Of a stretch of 64,000 nt of DNA, positions 44,374 through 53,946 are shown in pieces. The position numbers and the translations under genes are program-made. Every line of letters begins with the position of its first letter. Position 1 is the first letter of the stretch. Under the pieces are notes generated by a model that had not been told where the DNA came from, did no database searches, and saw only the letters and a program-made list of their open reading frames with translations. The stretch covers positions 186,001 to 250,000 of the forward strand of contig JAUHZK010000006.1 of assembly GCA_030425645.1 (NCBI GenBank), in the 5' to 3' direction. The DNA is from Gammaproteobacteria bacterium. Lineage in GTDB: Bacteria; Pseudomonadota; Gammaproteobacteria; JAPPPA01.

Positions 44374-44940
44374 TTGAAAACAATCATGATGATGAACATT
44401 CCAAACATGCTCACCTCCCTACGGGTCATCCTTATTCCCGTTATTGCGATTGTGTTCTATATGGACTTTCCCTACGCCCGCCAAGTGGCCGCATTTTTGT
44501 TTTTAATCACTGCCATTACCGATGCGCTAGACGGCTACCTAGCCCGCAAATGGAATCAAATGTCGAAGTTCGGTGCTTTTTTAGATCCGGTTGCCGACAA
44601 ACTGGCTGTTGCTATCGCCTTGCTGCTTATCTTGCAGTCAGACCCGCGTGTGGCCGTGGGCGTGCCTGTCGGCATTATTATTGGCCGCGAAATTACCATC
44701 TCCGCACTACGTGAATGGATGGCAGAACTCGGCAAGCGCGCCACCGTTGCCGTCTCTATCGTCGGCAAACTCAAAACCATTGCTCAGATGACAGCCATTG
44801 TCGCGCTTATGCTGGAAGTGAATATATGGTTCATCCCAACTTATGAGATCGGTTTCGTCGCTTTATATATCGCTGCAGGCTTGACTCTCTGGTCAATGCT
44901 GTCTTACCTAAAGGCCGCCTGGCCTGAACTAAAAGAATAA
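44374..44940 (+). CDS. pgsA: CDP-diacylglycerol-glycerol-3-phosphate 3-phosphatidyltransferase
   Basis: NIPNMLTSLRVILIPVIA; DALDGYLARKWNQMSKFGAFLDPVADKL CDP-alcohol motif. Confidence 0.96.
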   Translation: MKTIMMMNIPNMLTSLRVILIPVIAIVFYMDFPYARQVAAFLFLITAITDALDGYLARKWNQMSKFGAFLDPVADKLAVAIALLLILQSDPRVAVGVPVGIIIGREITISALREWMAELGKRATVAVSIVGKLKTIAQMTAIVALMLEVNIWFIPTYEIGFVALYIAAGLTLWSMLSYLKAAWPELKE

Positions 44941-45001
44941 TTCAGCCTGCGTCAGTAATTGACGCACCTTTGCATAGTCTTGTTCGTATGGAGCAAGACA
45001 T

Positions 45002-45505
45002 ATGAAAATTCAAATTGGTCACACACAGTGGGTGCTGGGCTATGAGTGCCCGCCAGAGCAGCCACACCGGCTTGCCTGCCAATATTTGCCGCAGGCGCCT
45101 GGCGCAGTAGAAGAGCATGGAGCGCGCACACGCTATCTGGTGGTTGAACCCAGCATAAGGATTGCTGATGCATCGAAAGCGTTGGTGGGTATCACGCTAA
45201 CTCAGAACTTTTTATTTACTGATGAATGTCCTTTGGATGTGGTGTTTCAGCCTTATAGTGTTGGCTATATGGAGCACCATATTCTTACCCCGTATTTCAC
45301 TAGCGAACCCAGCCCTCGTGGCGCAACTAGTGCGGTGTGCTTGTTGTATGTTTCAGAAGATGTGTCGCTTAGCCAAATAGAAGAGTGGCAGCGCTCTTTG
45401 GTTGAGCACGGGTTTCAAAAGTTGGTCCCGTTGGTTATGAGAGAGCCGTCGCTCGCTAAAGGGCGGTTGAGAGAATATCGAATTGAGGTGGTTCAGCATG
45501 ATTAG
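45002..45505 (+). CDS. Hypothetical protein, island operon gene 1
   Basis: 167 aa; ORF overlaps the next gene; no family recognised. Confidence 0.65.
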   Translation: MKIQIGHTQWVLGYECPPEQPHRLACQYLPQAPGAVEEHGARTRYLVVEPSIRIADASKALVGITLTQNFLFTDECPLDVVFQPYSVGYMEHHILTPYFTSEPSPRGATSAVCLLYVSEDVSLSQIEEWQRSLVEHGFQKLVPLVMREPSLAKGRLREYRIEVVQHD

Positions 45506-45995
45506 TATGGAATTACACGGTATGTCTTTTCGTATCCTCGACAAAGAAGATTTATGCCAAGTAAAACCTGGAGAGATCAGTATTCACACTAAAGGCGCGG
45601 ATGTACCTACGATGGGTATTGCCAAGGGCTTGCTCGATTTGTTTTTGGCTCCCAAGTTAATTGGCCTAGATTCCACTCTTATCAAGGAGGTTTTCGAACT
45701 TTCGAGTAAGTTTATGGCTCACGCGGGGTACTTGCAGGAGGGAAAAACAACAGTTCCTGACAATGATTTGAATACTGCGAGTAGCTTGCTCGCGATACTA
45801 ACGGTATCTCCTCAAATGAATATAAATGACGTACTCGATAGCTGGCGGGCGTCCATTGCAGACTCCTTGAAAGATCGTTGCACGTGGTGTTTTACGATGA
45901 TCGTAGAGACTGATTTGACCACTCCTTTCGAGAATGTATATTGGTCTGGACCTCGGTCACATAGCTTGGGCAGCAACAACGGGGAGGCGCAATAA
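45498..45995 (+). CDS. Hypothetical protein, island operon gene 2
   Basis: Likely ATG at 45498; stop/start coupled to the WYL gene at 45995. Confidence 0.65.
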   Translation: MISMELHGMSFRILDKEDLCQVKPGEISIHTKGADVPTMGIAKGLLDLFLAPKLIGLDSTLIKEVFELSSKFMAHAGYLQEGKTTVPDNDLNTASSLLAILTVSPQMNINDVLDSWRASIADSLKDRCTWCFTMIVETDLTTPFENVYWSGPRSHSLGSNNGEAQ

Positions 45996-47017
45996 TGGCG
46001 AAGACAACAGAAACGCTGTACAGGCAATGGGAGCTTCTGCGGTCTATACCGACCTTTCCTCGTAAGGCATCTACACGCAATTTGGCTGAGCTATTGGCGC
46101 GGGAAGGATACGAATGTAGTAAACGAACGGTAGAACGTGACCTCGAGCGTTTGGGCGCTGTCTTTACCGTTGAGTGTGAAGTAGAAAACGGCAGCAACTA
46201 TTGGTGGCGTGAAAAAGGCGCAGTCGACGACAGCTTGATCGTGCTGACGCCAACCGCGGCTTTGGCCATGGTACTAGCGCTACCGTATTTAGAAGGCTTG
46301 TTGGCGCCTAAGTTCGTTGAGCGATTAGACCCTTGGGTTAAGCATGCAAAAAATGTACTTGATAGCCCGAACCGGAAGGAATTTCAGGTGATTTCTAATC
46401 GAGTTATCTCGGTCACTAGAGGTCCAACGCTAAAGGCACCAGATGTAGATGCATTGGTATTAAATGTTATCTATCAAGCATTAGCTGATAAACATCTAGT
46501 AGAAATCGAGCATGTCCCACGTGAAGCCAATAGCGCTAAAAAATATCAGCTAATGGCTGCAGGTATTGTTAACCGGGAGGGCGTGTTGTACTTAGTGGCT
46601 AGTACGGAAAAGCAACCCGATAAGCTGCGTCAGTTTGCACTGCACAGGACATTAAGCGCCCGCACATTACCAATGCCTTACGAGCCATTACGACTTTCCG
46701 AGTTTCAAAACTATGTCCAGCGTGAGTTTAGCTACCCAACTATGGAGCAAAAGGCTGAAACTATTTATGTAGAGCTCGCCTTTACGGATTATGTTGGTAA
46801 GCATTTGTTTGAGCGCCCCTTGTCTGACGATCAGCAAATAGAATTTGATCCAGATGGTGGTGATTGTGTATTGACGGCCACAGTGAAAAACAACCAAGAG
46901 TTCCGTTGGTGGTTGCTAGGTTTTGGCAGCAATGTCGAGGTGATAGCTCCAGCTGAACTGCGTCAAGAAATAGCTCAAGAAATAGCTGATATGCACAGCT
47001 ACTACGGTGAAGATTAA
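45995..47017 (+). CDS. WYL-domain HTH transcriptional regulator (YafY-like)
   Basis: N-terminal HTH (STRNLAELLAREGYECSKRTVERDLERLG) and WYL-like core (REGVLYLVASTEKQPDKLRQFALHRTLSARTL). Confidence 0.88.
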   Translation: MAKTTETLYRQWELLRSIPTFPRKASTRNLAELLAREGYECSKRTVERDLERLGAVFTVECEVENGSNYWWREKGAVDDSLIVLTPTAALAMVLALPYLEGLLAPKFVERLDPWVKHAKNVLDSPNRKEFQVISNRVISVTRGPTLKAPDVDALVLNVIYQALADKHLVEIEHVPREANSAKKYQLMAAGIVNREGVLYLVASTEKQPDKLRQFALHRTLSARTLPMPYEPLRLSEFQNYVQREFSYPTMEQKAETIYVELAFTDYVGKHLFERPLSDDQQIEFDPDGGDCVLTATVKNNQEFRWWLLGFGSNVEVIAPAELRQEIAQEIADMHSYYGED

Positions 47018-47029
47018 AAAAACAAAGGA

Positions 47030-47389
47030 ATGAAGGTGAATCAAATGACCAAAAACTTTTCGTTGACTTGCAACGATAACGGGGAAATCACCGAATACGT
47101 AGCAACCGTTACTAGCCAAGTCGTTTCGGAAAATCGAGTAGCTCTGGAGTTCTCCGGTCATGATGAGGGGGATCCCTTTGTCGGGAACTGCTCTTTGGTC
47201 AGAAAAGGGTGCGAGTTATCAGGTAAAGGAGAGTTTCGTTATCTTGATGCGGACGAAGAGGAAACTGTTGGAGCCGTTATCACTGCCGTCATTTCCGACG
47301 TCGAAGGTAGCTGGGAAGTAGAAGGGTCGTGGCTTGATGAAGGGGATGATGAGCCTTACGAGCTTTTTGTTGAGTTGGTGAATTCATAG
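47030..47389 (+). CDS. Hypothetical acidic protein, island operon gene 4
   Basis: 119 aa, acidic (DADEEE, LDEGDDEPYE). Confidence 0.65.
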   Translation: MKVNQMTKNFSLTCNDNGEITEYVATVTSQVVSENRVALEFSGHDEGDPFVGNCSLVRKGCELSGKGEFRYLDADEEETVGAVITAVISDVEGSWEVEGSWLDEGDDEPYELFVELVNS

Positions 47390-47449
47390 CTAAACGACCC
47401 TAAGCAGTCATCCATTTATTTAAAAGCTATAACAAAGAAAGGAGCGAGT

Positions 47450-48793
47450 ATGTCTCATGCCAATGAAAACCGGTTGAAACTGAGCAGCAACGATAGAAAA
47501 AGTTTGGAAGCGCTTTTTTCAAGCCCCGAATTTCAGTCGCTTGAGGCGAATAACCAGTTCGCCAATTCGTTTGAGTTGAATACGCCAACTGAAACTGACC
47601 ATTGTCGGATATTAGCGTGGTTGTTAGATCCGACTGAAACTCATGGTTTGGGAACAAAGTGTTTGGCTGCATTGTATAGCGCAGCTAAGTCGGCTAATGA
47701 AAGTGCTACTTTCTTTAAGTCGTTATCATTGGCCGCTTTGTTGCAAACCGCCCAGGGGGTGCAGGTGGTTTGCGAGCAGCCTACGCACAAAGGAGGGCGG
47801 GTAGATCTTGTTGTTTATGGTGTTGAAGGTGATTGGGCGATAGTCATCGAAGTGAAATACGGTGCCAAGCTAATGCACAATCAACTCGAAGGCTACAGTG
47901 AGTGGATTGAGCAGGAGTTAATTCCTAATAGCGATATTAATGCCGATAAGGTGTTAAGAGTCTATCTTGATCGTTGGCTTGCTGAGCCGCTAGATGAGCC
48001 AAAAAACTGGATCTCTCTCAGTTATGAGTGGCTTTGGGTAATGTTGGCGCCTGAGATCGAATCTGGTCGAGTTCATCGCGAACAGCAGAAATTTCTGGCC
48101 GATTATATTGGTTATTGTGCCGATGACGGGGAGTTATCGGCTTGGTATCCAAATGTGGACAATGTGGCGCCCAAACTCGTTGAACAAAACTTTTTTAATG
48201 ATATGCAGCTTGCCGCGGGAGTTTTAAGGGATATTAATTCAAATAAGCGTGGGCGGCATCAATCAGGCATGCCTTGCATACTGGCTGCTCCTCCCCAGGA
48301 TAGAGCGTTACTCACTCACTTGTACCGCAACCGCTTTTTAATAGAAGAGCTAGAAAGCTACTCTGGAGCCTACGTATTGGGATTAGAGCTTCAAAAGCTG
48401 TATCCAGGGCTGGAAGTGGATCCTCACGAAGATTTCCTAGACTTGCGTCTGACGCAATGGCGACGCTTTGGTGATTCTGAAGATTGGCCCGTTAAAATTC
48501 AGCTTTACAAAAAGACGCGCGAGTCTGGCGACAGTAACGAAGTAAACACTTTCATGTATAAATATCAGATTTACTTTTGTTTGGACATGGAATGTTGTCG
48601 TGATAGGTACGTTGAAAGGCTTAGCAAAATTCCAACGCAGTTGTTTAAAAGCCGTGCTAAAACCAACCTTAGATGGACATTGGATCGGGAAACAGATTTT
48701 GAAACTTCCGATGTTTGGCCTAGAGCGGAATTTTTAGAAGATACAATCGCGAAACTTACTTTAGAGCTTGAAAGCATCTTAAGTTCTACTTAG
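47450..48793 (+). CDS. PD-(D/E)XK nuclease superfamily protein (PDDEXK_4-like)
   Basis: TETDHCRILAWLLDPTETHGLG; GGRVDLVVYGVEGDWAIVIEVKYGAKLMHNQLEGYSEWI (D...ExK...Q motif). Confidence 0.85.
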   Translation: MSHANENRLKLSSNDRKSLEALFSSPEFQSLEANNQFANSFELNTPTETDHCRILAWLLDPTETHGLGTKCLAALYSAAKSANESATFFKSLSLAALLQTAQGVQVVCEQPTHKGGRVDLVVYGVEGDWAIVIEVKYGAKLMHNQLEGYSEWIEQELIPNSDINADKVLRVYLDRWLAEPLDEPKNWISLSYEWLWVMLAPEIESGRVHREQQKFLADYIGYCADDGELSAWYPNVDNVAPKLVEQNFFNDMQLAAGVLRDINSNKRGRHQSGMPCILAAPPQDRALLTHLYRNRFLIEELESYSGAYVLGLELQKLYPGLEVDPHEDFLDLRLTQWRRFGDSEDWPVKIQLYKKTRESGDSNEVNTFMYKYQIYFCLDMECCRDRYVERLSKIPTQLFKSRAKTNLRWTLDRETDFETSDVWPRAEFLEDTIAKLTLELESILSST

Positions 48794-48841
48794 CTTGACA
48801 TAAGCTGTGGTCGACGATTGACGCCGGCCACAGCTTCCGCA

Positions 48842-49530: not shown

Positions 49531-50316
49531 TTGGGAGGCTACTTGATAGGAGGGATTGGGTTGCCGCAAAAATTAGGCGTGGAAAAAGAAAGTAGGTCGC
49601 TGGGGCTTCTCTGCTGCCAACAGTTTTGGGAGCAACATCCTTTGCATTTTCCGCAATTGAATTTTTGTATTCAGTTGCTCGGCGAGCAAGGAGCGGCTTT
49701 AAGCTTGCGATCTCCACCGGTGTTCTGGATTTTAGCCATGGTGCTGGAAGAGAAATTTAGTGAGCCGAAAAAGGGACTAACATGCTGGTTAAGTGAGTTA
49801 AAGAAGGCCTTGCTGGGCGTTAAGCCCGATGTCGCCGTTCTTAAGTTTTTGTCGTTCCCAAGGTATGCGCTAGCCGCGGAAATATTACGTCATTTTCCAG
49901 TCTGGCATTTGGGCCAATCGTCGGGCGCTGAAATAATTAGTATGGCCAAAGTAGGTGAGCTACGACCTTTAGCAGCAGCTATACCCGGAAATGATATAGG
50001 GCGCTTAGGCATTCTAGATGGCTGGTTTGAAATTCAACAAGAGGGATTGGTTACTGATAGCTTATTAGTTGAGCTTTTTGATTTGACCGCGCACGAAGCA
50101 GAGGCCTATAGGCTAGCCGTTTACGAAAATTTCCTATTAAGCCGGCCGCACGCGAGGCCGCGATACCGCAGCCTAGTGGATGTAAATCGGCATCGGCTAC
50201 GTTTACTTCAAAAGTTATTCACTAGGGAGCAATTGAGAATGATGTACTTCGGGTGCCCTGCGTACCAACGTTTGGCAAAGTTGCTAAATAACGCTGCATT
50301 AGCGGCGGCGTCCTAA
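49531..50316 (+). CDS. Hypothetical protein resembling the N-terminal half of the 52,534 protein (start uncertain)
   Basis: RSPPVFWILAMVLEEK...LGVKPDVAVLKFLSFPRYALAAEILRHFP. Confidence 0.6.
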   Translation: MGGYLIGGIGLPQKLGVEKESRSLGLLCCQQFWEQHPLHFPQLNFCIQLLGEQGAALSLRSPPVFWILAMVLEEKFSEPKKGLTCWLSELKKALLGVKPDVAVLKFLSFPRYALAAEILRHFPVWHLGQSSGAEIISMAKVGELRPLAAAIPGNDIGRLGILDGWFEIQQEGLVTDSLLVELFDLTAHEAEAYRLAVYENFLLSRPHARPRYRSLVDVNRHRLRLLQKLFTREQLRMMYFGCPAYQRLAKLLNNAALAAAS

Positions 50317-50960
50317 ACTACTGGATAGTAGGCGTCGCCCCATAAGGTGCCGGGGTTGCGCATCATCATTTCAATTATCAGCGGTACCAGCTGGCTCAGT
50401 ATTTGGCATCCTAGTTTTAGCTGCTCTCTATTGACCGCTCCAGCGCAGGTAGCGCCGCCGTGTACCAGTTGGTTACGTAGGGTATATAGCGGTACAAATA
50501 AGATACCCAAAAACTTGGCCGTATCTTGCTGGGCCAGCGCTTGGTTTGCGGCGCTACGGTGTTTGCTAAAGCGCTGTTGCCATTCTGACTCCGTGCACAG
50601 GCCGTTGTGGTAATCCCAGAATGGCTGAAACACAAATTTGTTGTCTAACAAAATGCGGTATTTATCGCTGTATTCTTGCCAAATCAGGTTGGCGATTCGG
50701 TTGTCGGTATCCAGTTCACAAATTTTTCGCAGAAAGTCTTGCAAGGCGTGGCTTTCGGATGGTCGCTGGAAGCTCGCCAAGTCATTTGCATAGGCGGCGT
50801 TGAAGGCTATCCATAGGAAAATGTATTGCGCGTCTTCGTCTCCTTGGCTGGCTTCTGCTTTCTGCAGCCAGCTTAATGCCCGATGCGAACGCAGGCCTAA
50901 GGCGTCGGGGAACGTGTCTCTATTCGAGCGTTGATACTCTTTGAGTTCTGAGTATTTCAT
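50313..50960 (-). CDS. HEPN-domain-like protein (putative RNase-type HEPN)
   Basis: Rx4H motif in LYTLRNQLVHGGATCAGAVNREQL; all-helical; LSWLQKAE...FLWIAFNAAYA. Confidence 0.75.
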   Translation of the reverse strand: MKYSELKEYQRSNRDTFPDALGLRSHRALSWLQKAEASQGDEDAQYIFLWIAFNAAYANDLASFQRPSESHALQDFLRKICELDTDNRIANLIWQEYSDKYRILLDNKFVFQPFWDYHNGLCTESEWQQRFSKHRSAANQALAQQDTAKFLGILFVPLYTLRNQLVHGGATCAGAVNREQLKLGCQILSQLVPLIIEMMMRNPGTLWGDAYYPVV

Positions 50961-51749: not shown

Positions 51750-52370
51750 TTAGCCTTCCGCAAATAGTTCGCCTTGCAAATCAACCCGAATATCAATCGA
51801 AAAAGAATGAATGCGTAGCATTTGATTGATATAGCGGTATCCGTGCATGCCTTCTTTGCCAAGCAACTCGAAAAATGGTCGGCTAACGCTCAATTTGCGA
51901 AATGCTTCGGGAATGTCGGGGGAGTCATACAGCTCTTCAAACCATTGTTGGATGTGCTGCTTATCTAAGTCTGACTGGGCTTTCTCCTCTGAAATGAGTT
52001 TGCGTACAGCTTCACGATCGCCATTGGCACCGTCGAGAGAGTAGGATTTTGAATAGCTAAATAGTAGGTTTTCTGACGCCGCGCGGTATTCAGTGTCGCT
52101 GGGTCCAATATGAATGTTTAGCGTGGCGTCTATATTGGCGCTGTGTATCCAGTCCAGTGGGTCTTGTATTCGCAGGCCAGCATCTTGAAGTGATTTGTTG
52201 AATGCCTTGTCGCATTCGCACTGGGCTTGATTGAGTGCCGCGTTAATTTCAAGTAAACGCGGCAGGTGTTCGCAAATCCAGTCGCGATTGTTGTCGTCAA
52301 AAGCACGGGTTTGTTTGGGAATCCAAGAAATATGCGTGTTCGGTGATTTAGCTTCAAAAAGATAGCTCAT
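51750..52370 (-). CDS. Hypothetical protein
   Basis: 206 aa ORF, same strand and spacing as 51064-51696. Confidence 0.6.
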   Translation of the reverse strand: MSYLFEAKSPNTHISWIPKQTRAFDDNNRDWICEHLPRLLEINAALNQAQCECDKAFNKSLQDAGLRIQDPLDWIHSANIDATLNIHIGPSDTEYRAASENLLFSYSKSYSLDGANGDREAVRKLISEEKAQSDLDKQHIQQWFEELYDSPDIPEAFRKLSVSRPFFELLGKEGMHGYRYINQMLRIHSFSIDIRVDLQGELFAEG

Positions 52371-52533
52371 AACTTTTTCATCGGCCCAGAAGTTATTGGC
52401 GTTGCGAGCTAACTTTATGACTGCCTTACGACAGATACTGACGTGGAACCGTGGCTATATATGTGGGGATGCAGCGACATCAGTTGACGCGGCCGTGGCT
52501 AAAACTGCTTTGCGATTAACTTAGGAGAATCGT

Positions 52534-53643
52534 ATGACTAGTTATAAGTGTGCGTCGGATTGTGCGTCTGAAGATACAGATAGCTCTTGTGCCGAAGAAA
52601 AAGCACAGGTAGGAATGTGTCCAAAGCGCTATTGCGAGATACGTATGTGGCCAGAATTACCATTGGATATTCGTGAGGAAAATGATCCACGATACAAGCT
52701 ATGGATAAAAAGTCTTCCGCACGAGGTTGCTTTTAGAACATGTTTTTGGTGGTCGGATCAAGATGATGCGCTGGAGTTTTTAGCCAATCATGGGGTCGCT
52801 GCAGCGGAGCTAATCGGGCGGGCTCCTTTCGTAATGTGGCTGCTGGCGGTTAAAAACCAATCTATACGGAAACTGTTGGGCGGATCTAGTTTGCCGTTAA
52901 ATAGAATTATGGCAGCCAAGTCACCCGTTATGGCATTAGTGCGGTGGCTTGATATGCCTAGCCCTAAATCGTCCGCGCGTTTGCTAGCGTCAGTACCGCT
53001 ACTGGACGCCACTCCCTCAAATGCACAAAAGATTATAGAGACCCTCAGAGCCGAAGAAAGGCCTTTGATTCTGAACCATTTGCCGAAGCTGCAATACCCG
53101 TTGCTCGAGTGGTTGACGTTGCAAAAGCAGCAAAACTGGGTGTCAAACAGTCTGTTGATCGACTTAGCTAAGGCGGAGTACGAGCAACTCGAAGATCTAA
53201 TACGGATGGCTAAAGTGAATCACAGTTGTTGTGGCAGCCGACGTATGCCGATTTACCGTTCTGTGCCAGAAATAATAATGCATAGTGAAAGACTATATCT
53301 TCGCGGCCACTCTAGACGAACGATCAGCGTTTTACCGAATGGACTAGATTTGTTCGATGGGTTGGAGCATATAAGTACAGAACATCGTTTGGCTTTGGAA
53401 TCAGCAAAGATGCGGAATTGTGCCTACAGTTTCAAACATTCAGTGGAATTAGGCGAAATTCATTTTTTTCACCTAAACGGTGAAAAGCCAGCAACGCTAG
53501 CCTTAAGTTTTCAAAACGGGCAGGCTAGAATTGTTGAGTTAGTAGGACGAAAAAACGGGCCCGCTAACTTTAGAGTCGTACATAGAATTAATAAGTGGCT
53601 TATACAGACCAATTTGAAGTTGGCTGCTAGTAGAGTGAAGTAG
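52534..53643 (+). CDS. Protein with PcfJ-like C-terminal domain and Cys-rich N-terminus
   Basis: C-terminus HRLALESAKMRNCAYSFKHSVELGEIHFFHLNGEKPATLALSFQNGQARIVELVGRKNGPAN resembles PcfJ pattern. Confidence 0.65.
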   Translation: MTSYKCASDCASEDTDSSCAEEKAQVGMCPKRYCEIRMWPELPLDIREENDPRYKLWIKSLPHEVAFRTCFWWSDQDDALEFLANHGVAAAELIGRAPFVMWLLAVKNQSIRKLLGGSSLPLNRIMAAKSPVMALVRWLDMPSPKSSARLLASVPLLDATPSNAQKIIETLRAEERPLILNHLPKLQYPLLEWLTLQKQQNWVSNSLLIDLAKAEYEQLEDLIRMAKVNHSCCGSRRMPIYRSVPEIIMHSERLYLRGHSRRTISVLPNGLDLFDGLEHISTEHRLALESAKMRNCAYSFKHSVELGEIHFFHLNGEKPATLALSFQNGQARIVELVGRKNGPANFRVVHRINKWLIQTNLKLAASRVK

Positions 53644-53813: not shown

Positions 53814-53932
53814 TACTGGTTTTTCCAAGATATCCCATCGGCTTTTAGGCAGCTTTAGACTGCTGCCATTCTGACTTTATGGTCGATGTTGGCTTACCTA
53901 AAGCCGCTTGACCGAGATTGAAAGAAGATTAA
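53814..53932 (+). pseudogene. pgsA: Decayed duplicate of pgsA 3' end
   Basis: YWFFQDIPSAFRQL*TAAILTLWSMLAYLK aligns without gaps to intact IWFIPTYEIGFVALYIAAGLTLWSMLSYLK. Confidence 0.85.
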
Positions 53933-53946
53933 TCGTAACTAAGCAA

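Follow-up and report, generated by a model that had tools for sequence, protein, structure and literature searches.

DriD of Caulobacter crescentus is a WYL transcription factor that is activated by single-stranded DNA (ssDNA) bound to its WYL domain, and it controls bapE, recJ and dnaG (PMC12340889). Its consensus is ATACGAC-N7-GTCGTAT, and ATACGACAGTAACTGTCGTAT served as its test site (PMC12340889). BrxR and CapW are WYL repressors of BREX and CBASS, and their operators, which lie near the promoter, are palindromes that have a 5-bp spacer or are about 20 bp long (PMC9122601, PMC9122589, PMC9122588). Here we analyzed five genes (A–E) at positions 45002–48793 of a 64,000-nucleotide stretch of a gammaproteobacterial genome (GenBank assembly GCA_030425645.1, contig JAUHZK010000006.1, positions 186,001–250,000), which is called the window below. 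Gene C encodes a WYL regulator and gene E a protein of the PD-(D/E)XK nuclease type. A palindrome before gene A matches one that in other bacteria accompanies regulators of this type and precedes anti-viral and DNA-repair genes, which suggests that attack on DNA or damage to it turns on the nuclease. On balance, and judging from the sequence, A–E would be a C-regulated nuclease operon that probably responds to DNA damage or ssDNA and plausibly acts against phages.

Relationship of the regulator to known WYL factors

Protein C matches the Pfam families WYL (8.5e-8) and WCX (4.9e-19), both above the cut-offs. Its N-terminal helix-turn-helix (HTH) is weakly matched by the Arg_repressor HTH and carries a conserved RTxxRDL helix, and the protein thus shows the winged HTH-WYL-WCX composition of the BrxR family. 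The WYL/HTH regulator proposed in the initial annotation is confirmed by these matches. Of 368 other gammaproteobacterial genomes, 31 encode relatives of C with 26–37% identity over most of the length (sampled genomes are labelled G and extracted loci L, each with three digits), and no close relative was found in the genome contig collection. The profile of the C family matches the WYL-protein structures 7u02, 7tzv, 9cu3, 9pfq and 8tp8 at 4.5e-14 to 2e-13, and the PafBC structure 6sj9 at 1.1e-10. The former five entries, which are labelled only as WYL or DeoR-family protein, are presumably DriD.

Membership of the BrxR family is defined by a BLASTP E value below 1e-5 to BrxR of E. fergusonii pEFER (PMC9122601). 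C showed no significant similarity to this protein (best match of 8 residues, E 1.1), and the C-family profile scored it at only 6 bits. For this reason C was not filed as BrxR. C appears to be a member of the general WYL-factor class that is closer to DriD and PafBC in its WYL-WCX sequence.

A palindrome at the operon head and near relatives of C

The sequence TGCGTCA-GTAAT-TGACGCA upstream of gene A lies 8 nt past the stop codon of pgsA (Table 1). When the motif TGCGWCA-N5-TGWCGCA was searched with at most one mismatch, this was the single site in the 2.75 Mb genome. When the regions upstream of 33 C relatives were scanned without bias for their best palindrome, the search returned TGCGACA-N5-TGTCGCA-like sequences in L071, L076, L077, L082, L062 and L067, and the GCGTCA-N5-TGACGC form in L083. 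With the window palindrome as the sole query (up to two mismatches), 10 sites were found in 34 C-family loci, versus a mean of 2.07 and a maximum of 6 in 30 dinucleotide shuffles. Four of these sites lie just upstream of C relatives (shuffle mean 0.10). The W-form motif has 40 sites in 496 kb versus a shuffle mean of 5.1, and 29 of 47 sites were intergenic, where intergenic DNA makes up 15%. Sites with at most one mismatch numbered about 19 in 0.44 Mb around C relatives versus 65 in about 73 Mb of genomes in which C was not found. Genome-wide, the motif and its reversed control pattern had 71 and 27 sites, respectively, in 24 C-bearing genomes, and 65 and 39 sites in 26 genomes without C. Because this excess in the C genomes is modest, the claim of a C operator rests on the position of the sites near C relatives and before genes.

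The likeness to DriD extends from the protein, with the same HTH-WYL-WCX layout, to the DNA site. The DriD test site and the C-family palindrome have a common CGACA-N5-TGTCG core and spacing. The C-family motif has the CGAC half-site with its guanines, the palindromic form and the 5-bp spacer of a DriD-type operator; in the window copy, a single symmetric position carries T instead of A. The bapE promoter contains TGCGTCAAGCCGGGACGCC, which is close to the form of the window palindrome (PMC12340889). DriD, too, has a site at its own gene, and relatives of C are found near sites before recA, recC and rmuC. Unlike DriD, C (340 residues) is the product of an operon located in an island, the site in the window reads TGCGTCA/TGACGCA, and the outer bases of the C motif are TG..CA versus AT..AT. 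With BrxR and CapW, C has in common the HTH-WYL-WCX layout of defence-operon regulators and a palindrome with a 5-bp spacer near the promoter, but the operator sequence differs and C is encoded third, not first. The analogy to BrxR and CapW drawn in the initial annotation was not borne out, since C lacks significant similarity to BrxR, the closest solved structures of its family are other WYL factors including PafBC, and the operator half-site is DriD-like.

Genes behind the palindromes

Motif sites precede C-like genes themselves, in some cases by 30–33 bp, which would suit repression. Tandem-AAA ATPases of about 710 residues with partial IetA similarity lie behind sites in five loci (Table 1), and this ATPase looks like a frequent partner of C-type regulators. 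In L086, an exact site precedes a PDC-S26 nuclease gene in a same-strand cluster that ends in a C relative 4–6 kb away. In L107, an hsdM-like gene is 210 bp from a one-mismatch site, as judged by eye. Repair genes are also present. G210 has motif sites before recA (L101 3508–3526), recC (L098 6022–6040), dnaQ/rnhA and rmuC, and G287 has one before recC (L017 9917–9935). In L074, rmuC lies behind a site, and the site at dnaQ in L100 is nearer to the rnhA region. A regulator that responds to DNA damage or ssDNA would be expected to control such a combination of repair and defence genes, and the recA and recC palindromes possibly mark a WYL-controlled DNA-damage regulon in Gammaproteobacteria.

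Some sites were considered as chance matches, namely the one-mismatch sites of G210 that often lie inside genes, and an exact site inside uvrC in G004, a genome in which C was not found. Similar unknown proteins of about 213–231 residues are encoded behind palindromes in two genomes (L109 1390–2031 and L071 2780–3475).

Conserved nuclease residues in protein E

Protein E matches Pfam PDDEXK_4 (PF14281) at 1.1e-19 with 71.5 bits, versus a gathering threshold of 22.3, and carries the motif VDLVVY...VIEVKYGAKLMHNQLEGY, both in agreement with the PDDEXK_4-like protein described initially. When E was aligned with seven distant relatives, E109, D119, E134, K136, Q145 and Y149 were invariant. The resulting pattern of D119, E134-x-K136 and Q145-x3-Y149 agrees with that of active PD-(D/E)XK nucleases that carry a QxxxY motif. 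E also matches the models of PDC-S26, a single-gene phage-defence candidate in PADLOC, at 5.5e-22 for the best model. The match covers residues 14–220 of 447, the N-terminal half, and model positions 5–202 of 400. The C-terminal half of E has diverged from PDC-S26, and E differs further by its place in a WYL operon beside three unknown genes. In the genome contig collection, the search for close relatives of E returned one distant clostridial match.

Organization of the operon and its orphan proteins

All five open reading frames (ORFs) were found on the + strand and packed closely, as had been claimed (Table 1). Genes A and B overlap by 8 nt and genes B and C by 1 nt (TAATG), and a single operon is supported. 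The gaps are 12 nt between C and D and 60 nt between D and E, and no hairpin or promoter-like break was seen inside the operon. For each gene, the annotated frame is the top of six by the codon usage of the known genes of the window. A, B and D are therefore probably real genes, although two of them are orphans. Gene B could alternatively start at the TTG at 45483 (170 residues), and gene D at the ATG at 47045, where the ribosome site is better placed. A stable hairpin after gene E is a candidate transcription end (fold z −3.3 on the + strand and −3.6 on the − strand), and no clear T run was found at it.

A, B and D, described initially as three unrecognised proteins, could not be assigned to a family with Pfam, NCBIfam, PADLOC or PHROGs, nor could they be traced to any system already named. 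Searches of 369 gammaproteobacterial genomes and 399 genomes of the phylum gave no convincing relative of A or B, both lack a match among 72,556 plasmids or 2.9 million viral contigs, and A has none in phages either; distant relatives could be missed because these searches were single-sequence. The structure model of A was unusable (predicted local distance difference test, pLDDT, 37). D is strongly acidic, with an isoelectric point of 4.05 and 26 D+E versus 7 K+R residues. It was modelled as an eight-stranded barrel with moderate confidence (pLDDT 64, predicted template modelling score 0.56), weakly resembling lipocalin, nitrobindin and GID4 barrels, none at E ≤ 0.001. One weak relative of D with similar length was found in G541 (L095 7414–7743; 30% identity over the whole length in a MAFFT alignment). 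Its E value of 6.8e-5 for one genome corresponds to about 0.03 overall, because 399 genomes were searched. It was not found in 59 other genomes of the same genus.

Several other matches were rejected. The A matches in L010 (E 0.001) and the D matches in L062 are in frames that overlap well-defined genes, a DoxX/EAL region and a MoxR-type ATPase, respectively. The B matches in L021 and L022 (E 0.001–0.004), which are parts of 588- and 687-codon frames, were not believed, and two PHROG matches to D (E 0.19 and 0.38) were taken as noise.

Location in an island at pgsA

The operon is located in an island of about 9 kb between pgsA and a convergent CorC/DUF21 gene. In the congener G001 (locus L012), the end of pgsA is separated from the CorC gene by an empty gap of about 40 bp, and the same pair is 9 kb apart in the window. 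The island was called by comparison with this one congener, in which no relatives of A, C or E were found. Within the pgsA 3′ end, 32 nt (44882–44913) are repeated at 53872–53903 with 84% identity, and alignment of the two junctions scored 72, versus a maximum of 42 in 500 shuffles. A decayed pgsA 3′ copy at the far junction is the usual mark of insertion at such a site. The island would thus have inserted into the pgsA 3′ end, with the newcomer bringing a replacement end and the old end staying as a relic. No integrase was recognised between the island ends. The island location given in the initial annotation is confirmed by the congener comparison and by the pgsA relic.

Other genes of the island were also noted. 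A possible second, weaker operator, which is suggestive only, lies between the divergent genes 51750–52370 (−) and 52534–53643 (+), of 206 and 369 residues. A 215-residue HEPN-type protein with an RNQLVH (R-x4-H) motif is encoded at 50313–50960 (−). Relatives with 42–47% identity, annotated as HEPN domain-containing, occur on many alphaproteobacterial conjugative plasmids. A homologue with 56% identity in L017 (G287) adjoins an E relative; others are in the C-family loci L076 and L081, and one is directly behind a WYL gene in L026.

Table 1. Positions of the operon genes, candidate control elements, island junctions and ATPase genes behind palindromes in other genomes
Feature	Position	Strand	Description
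Gene A	45002–45505	+	167 aa, orphan; ORF, best coding frame
Gene B	45498–45995	+	165 aa from ATG, orphan; ORF, best coding frame
Gene C	45995–47017	+	340 aa HTH-WYL-WCX transcription factor; Pfam WYL and WCX
Gene D	47030–47389	+	119 aa, acidic, predicted 8-stranded beta-barrel
Gene E	47450–48793	+	447 aa PD-(D/E)XK nuclease (PDDEXK_4), PDC-S26-like
Candidate operator of C	44948–44966	.	Perfect palindrome, 35 bp upstream of gene A
Possible second operator	52473–52491	.	Weaker, 2 mismatches
Hairpin, candidate transcription end	48802–48836	.	Inverted repeat I20, between E and convergent − strand gene
pgsA 3′ end, left island junction	44827–44941	+	Alignment with relic
Decayed second pgsA 3′ end copy, right island junction	53817–53933	+	Repeat D1, alignment
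Tandem-AAA ATPases behind palindrome	L069 4269–6392, L072 3656–5782, L081 4479–6635, L083 8172–10307, L084 11225–13360		

Discussion

The following mechanism is proposed for the operon in the pgsA island. A dimer of C would bind TGCGTCA-N5-TGACGCA before gene A and would control the operon together with its own synthesis. Phage infection, plasmid entry or another insult would generate single-stranded or damaged DNA, the WYL domain of C would sense this nucleic-acid ligand, possibly in the manner of DriD, and expression of the operon would rise. By analogy, C may activate the operon, like DriD, or repress it, like BrxR and CapW. E would then cut DNA, either invading or host. A, B and D would be accessory proteins, and D, as a small acidic beta-barrel, could shield or modulate E.

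Several observations weigh against this reading. About 24 of the 34 C relatives have no site within 250 bp upstream at up to two mismatches, and the window half-site TGCGTCA is one symmetric base off the commoner TGCGACA. The operators before recA and recC suit a repair regulon as well as defence. At single-sequence sensitivity, the five genes were not found together in any of the 369 genomes of the class and 399 of the phylum, or in any plasmid, phage or viral contig. Given this result, the mostly solitary or mixed-cargo setting of the E relatives and the orphan status of A and B, the operon could be cargo that was assembled by chance. The initial suggestion of an undescribed five-gene defence module is thus not supported as a fixed unit. 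Its self-regulated part fared better, with an operator of the family type at the operon head.

As cargo, E would be a stand-alone PDC-S26-type defence nuclease, and A, B, C and D would be unrelated passengers placed beside it by chance. The E relatives in L003, L016, L018, L023 and L024 have none of A–D alongside, and A, B and D are absent from all C-family neighbourhoods, where the weak matches to A and D were spurious. The overlapping codons of A, B and C, the lack of an internal break and the single operator at the head all argue against this, as does L086 with its operator before a PDC-S26 gene near a C relative, and a chance assembly is therefore somewhat unlikely. A–E might also be a nuclease-based operon for DNA repair or genotoxic stress, in which C is a damage regulator and E processes damaged DNA, comparable to BapE or RecJ under DriD. 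The repair-gene sites of G210 and G287 and the DriD targets (PMC12340889) agree with such a role. The operon, however, is confined to a horizontally acquired island that is absent from the congener, the window genome would have no repair regulon because it contains no other operator site, and the E family is a listed phage-defence candidate that elsewhere lies in defence-like islands, which makes this explanation unlikely.

The small, acidic, single-barrel protein D directly before E would also fit a toxin-antitoxin or polymorphic-toxin-like arrangement, with E as toxin, D as immunity protein or DNA-mimic inhibitor, and C as regulator. Since relatives of E occur without a D-like neighbour and no nuclease adjoins the one relative of D, we regard this as quite improbable. 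The palindrome, given its place just after pgsA and an RNA fold of −10 kcal/mol, could be the pgsA transcription terminator and not an operator. This was rejected as very improbable, because no T run follows the palindrome, it folds only slightly better than shuffled sequences (z −1.8), nothing like it follows pgsA in the congener, and the same palindrome recurs in front of C relatives where pgsA is absent.

The favoured reading of A–E as a C-regulated nuclease operon can be extended tentatively to the whole family. The C family might represent a widespread, undescribed DriD-like response of Gammaproteobacteria to DNA damage or ssDNA, in which the operator TGCGWCA-N5-TGWCGCA joins anti-phage islands and repair genes (recA, recC, rmuC) into a common regulon. 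A mobile, self-contained branch, driving three new proteins along with a PD-(D/E)XK nuclease, would then be present in the window. A shared operator of a DriD-like WYL family, located near genes for defence and for repair, is apparently new, although the literature may already describe it.

Much more is known about the contents of defence operons than about what turns them on. An operator conserved before both repair genes and defence cargo would provide a direct and cheap test of whether ssDNA made by phages or by damage is the trigger, and the window is the simplest case, with one site and one operon. The operator motif can also serve as a finder of unknown defence genes, in which anything behind the motif is a candidate.

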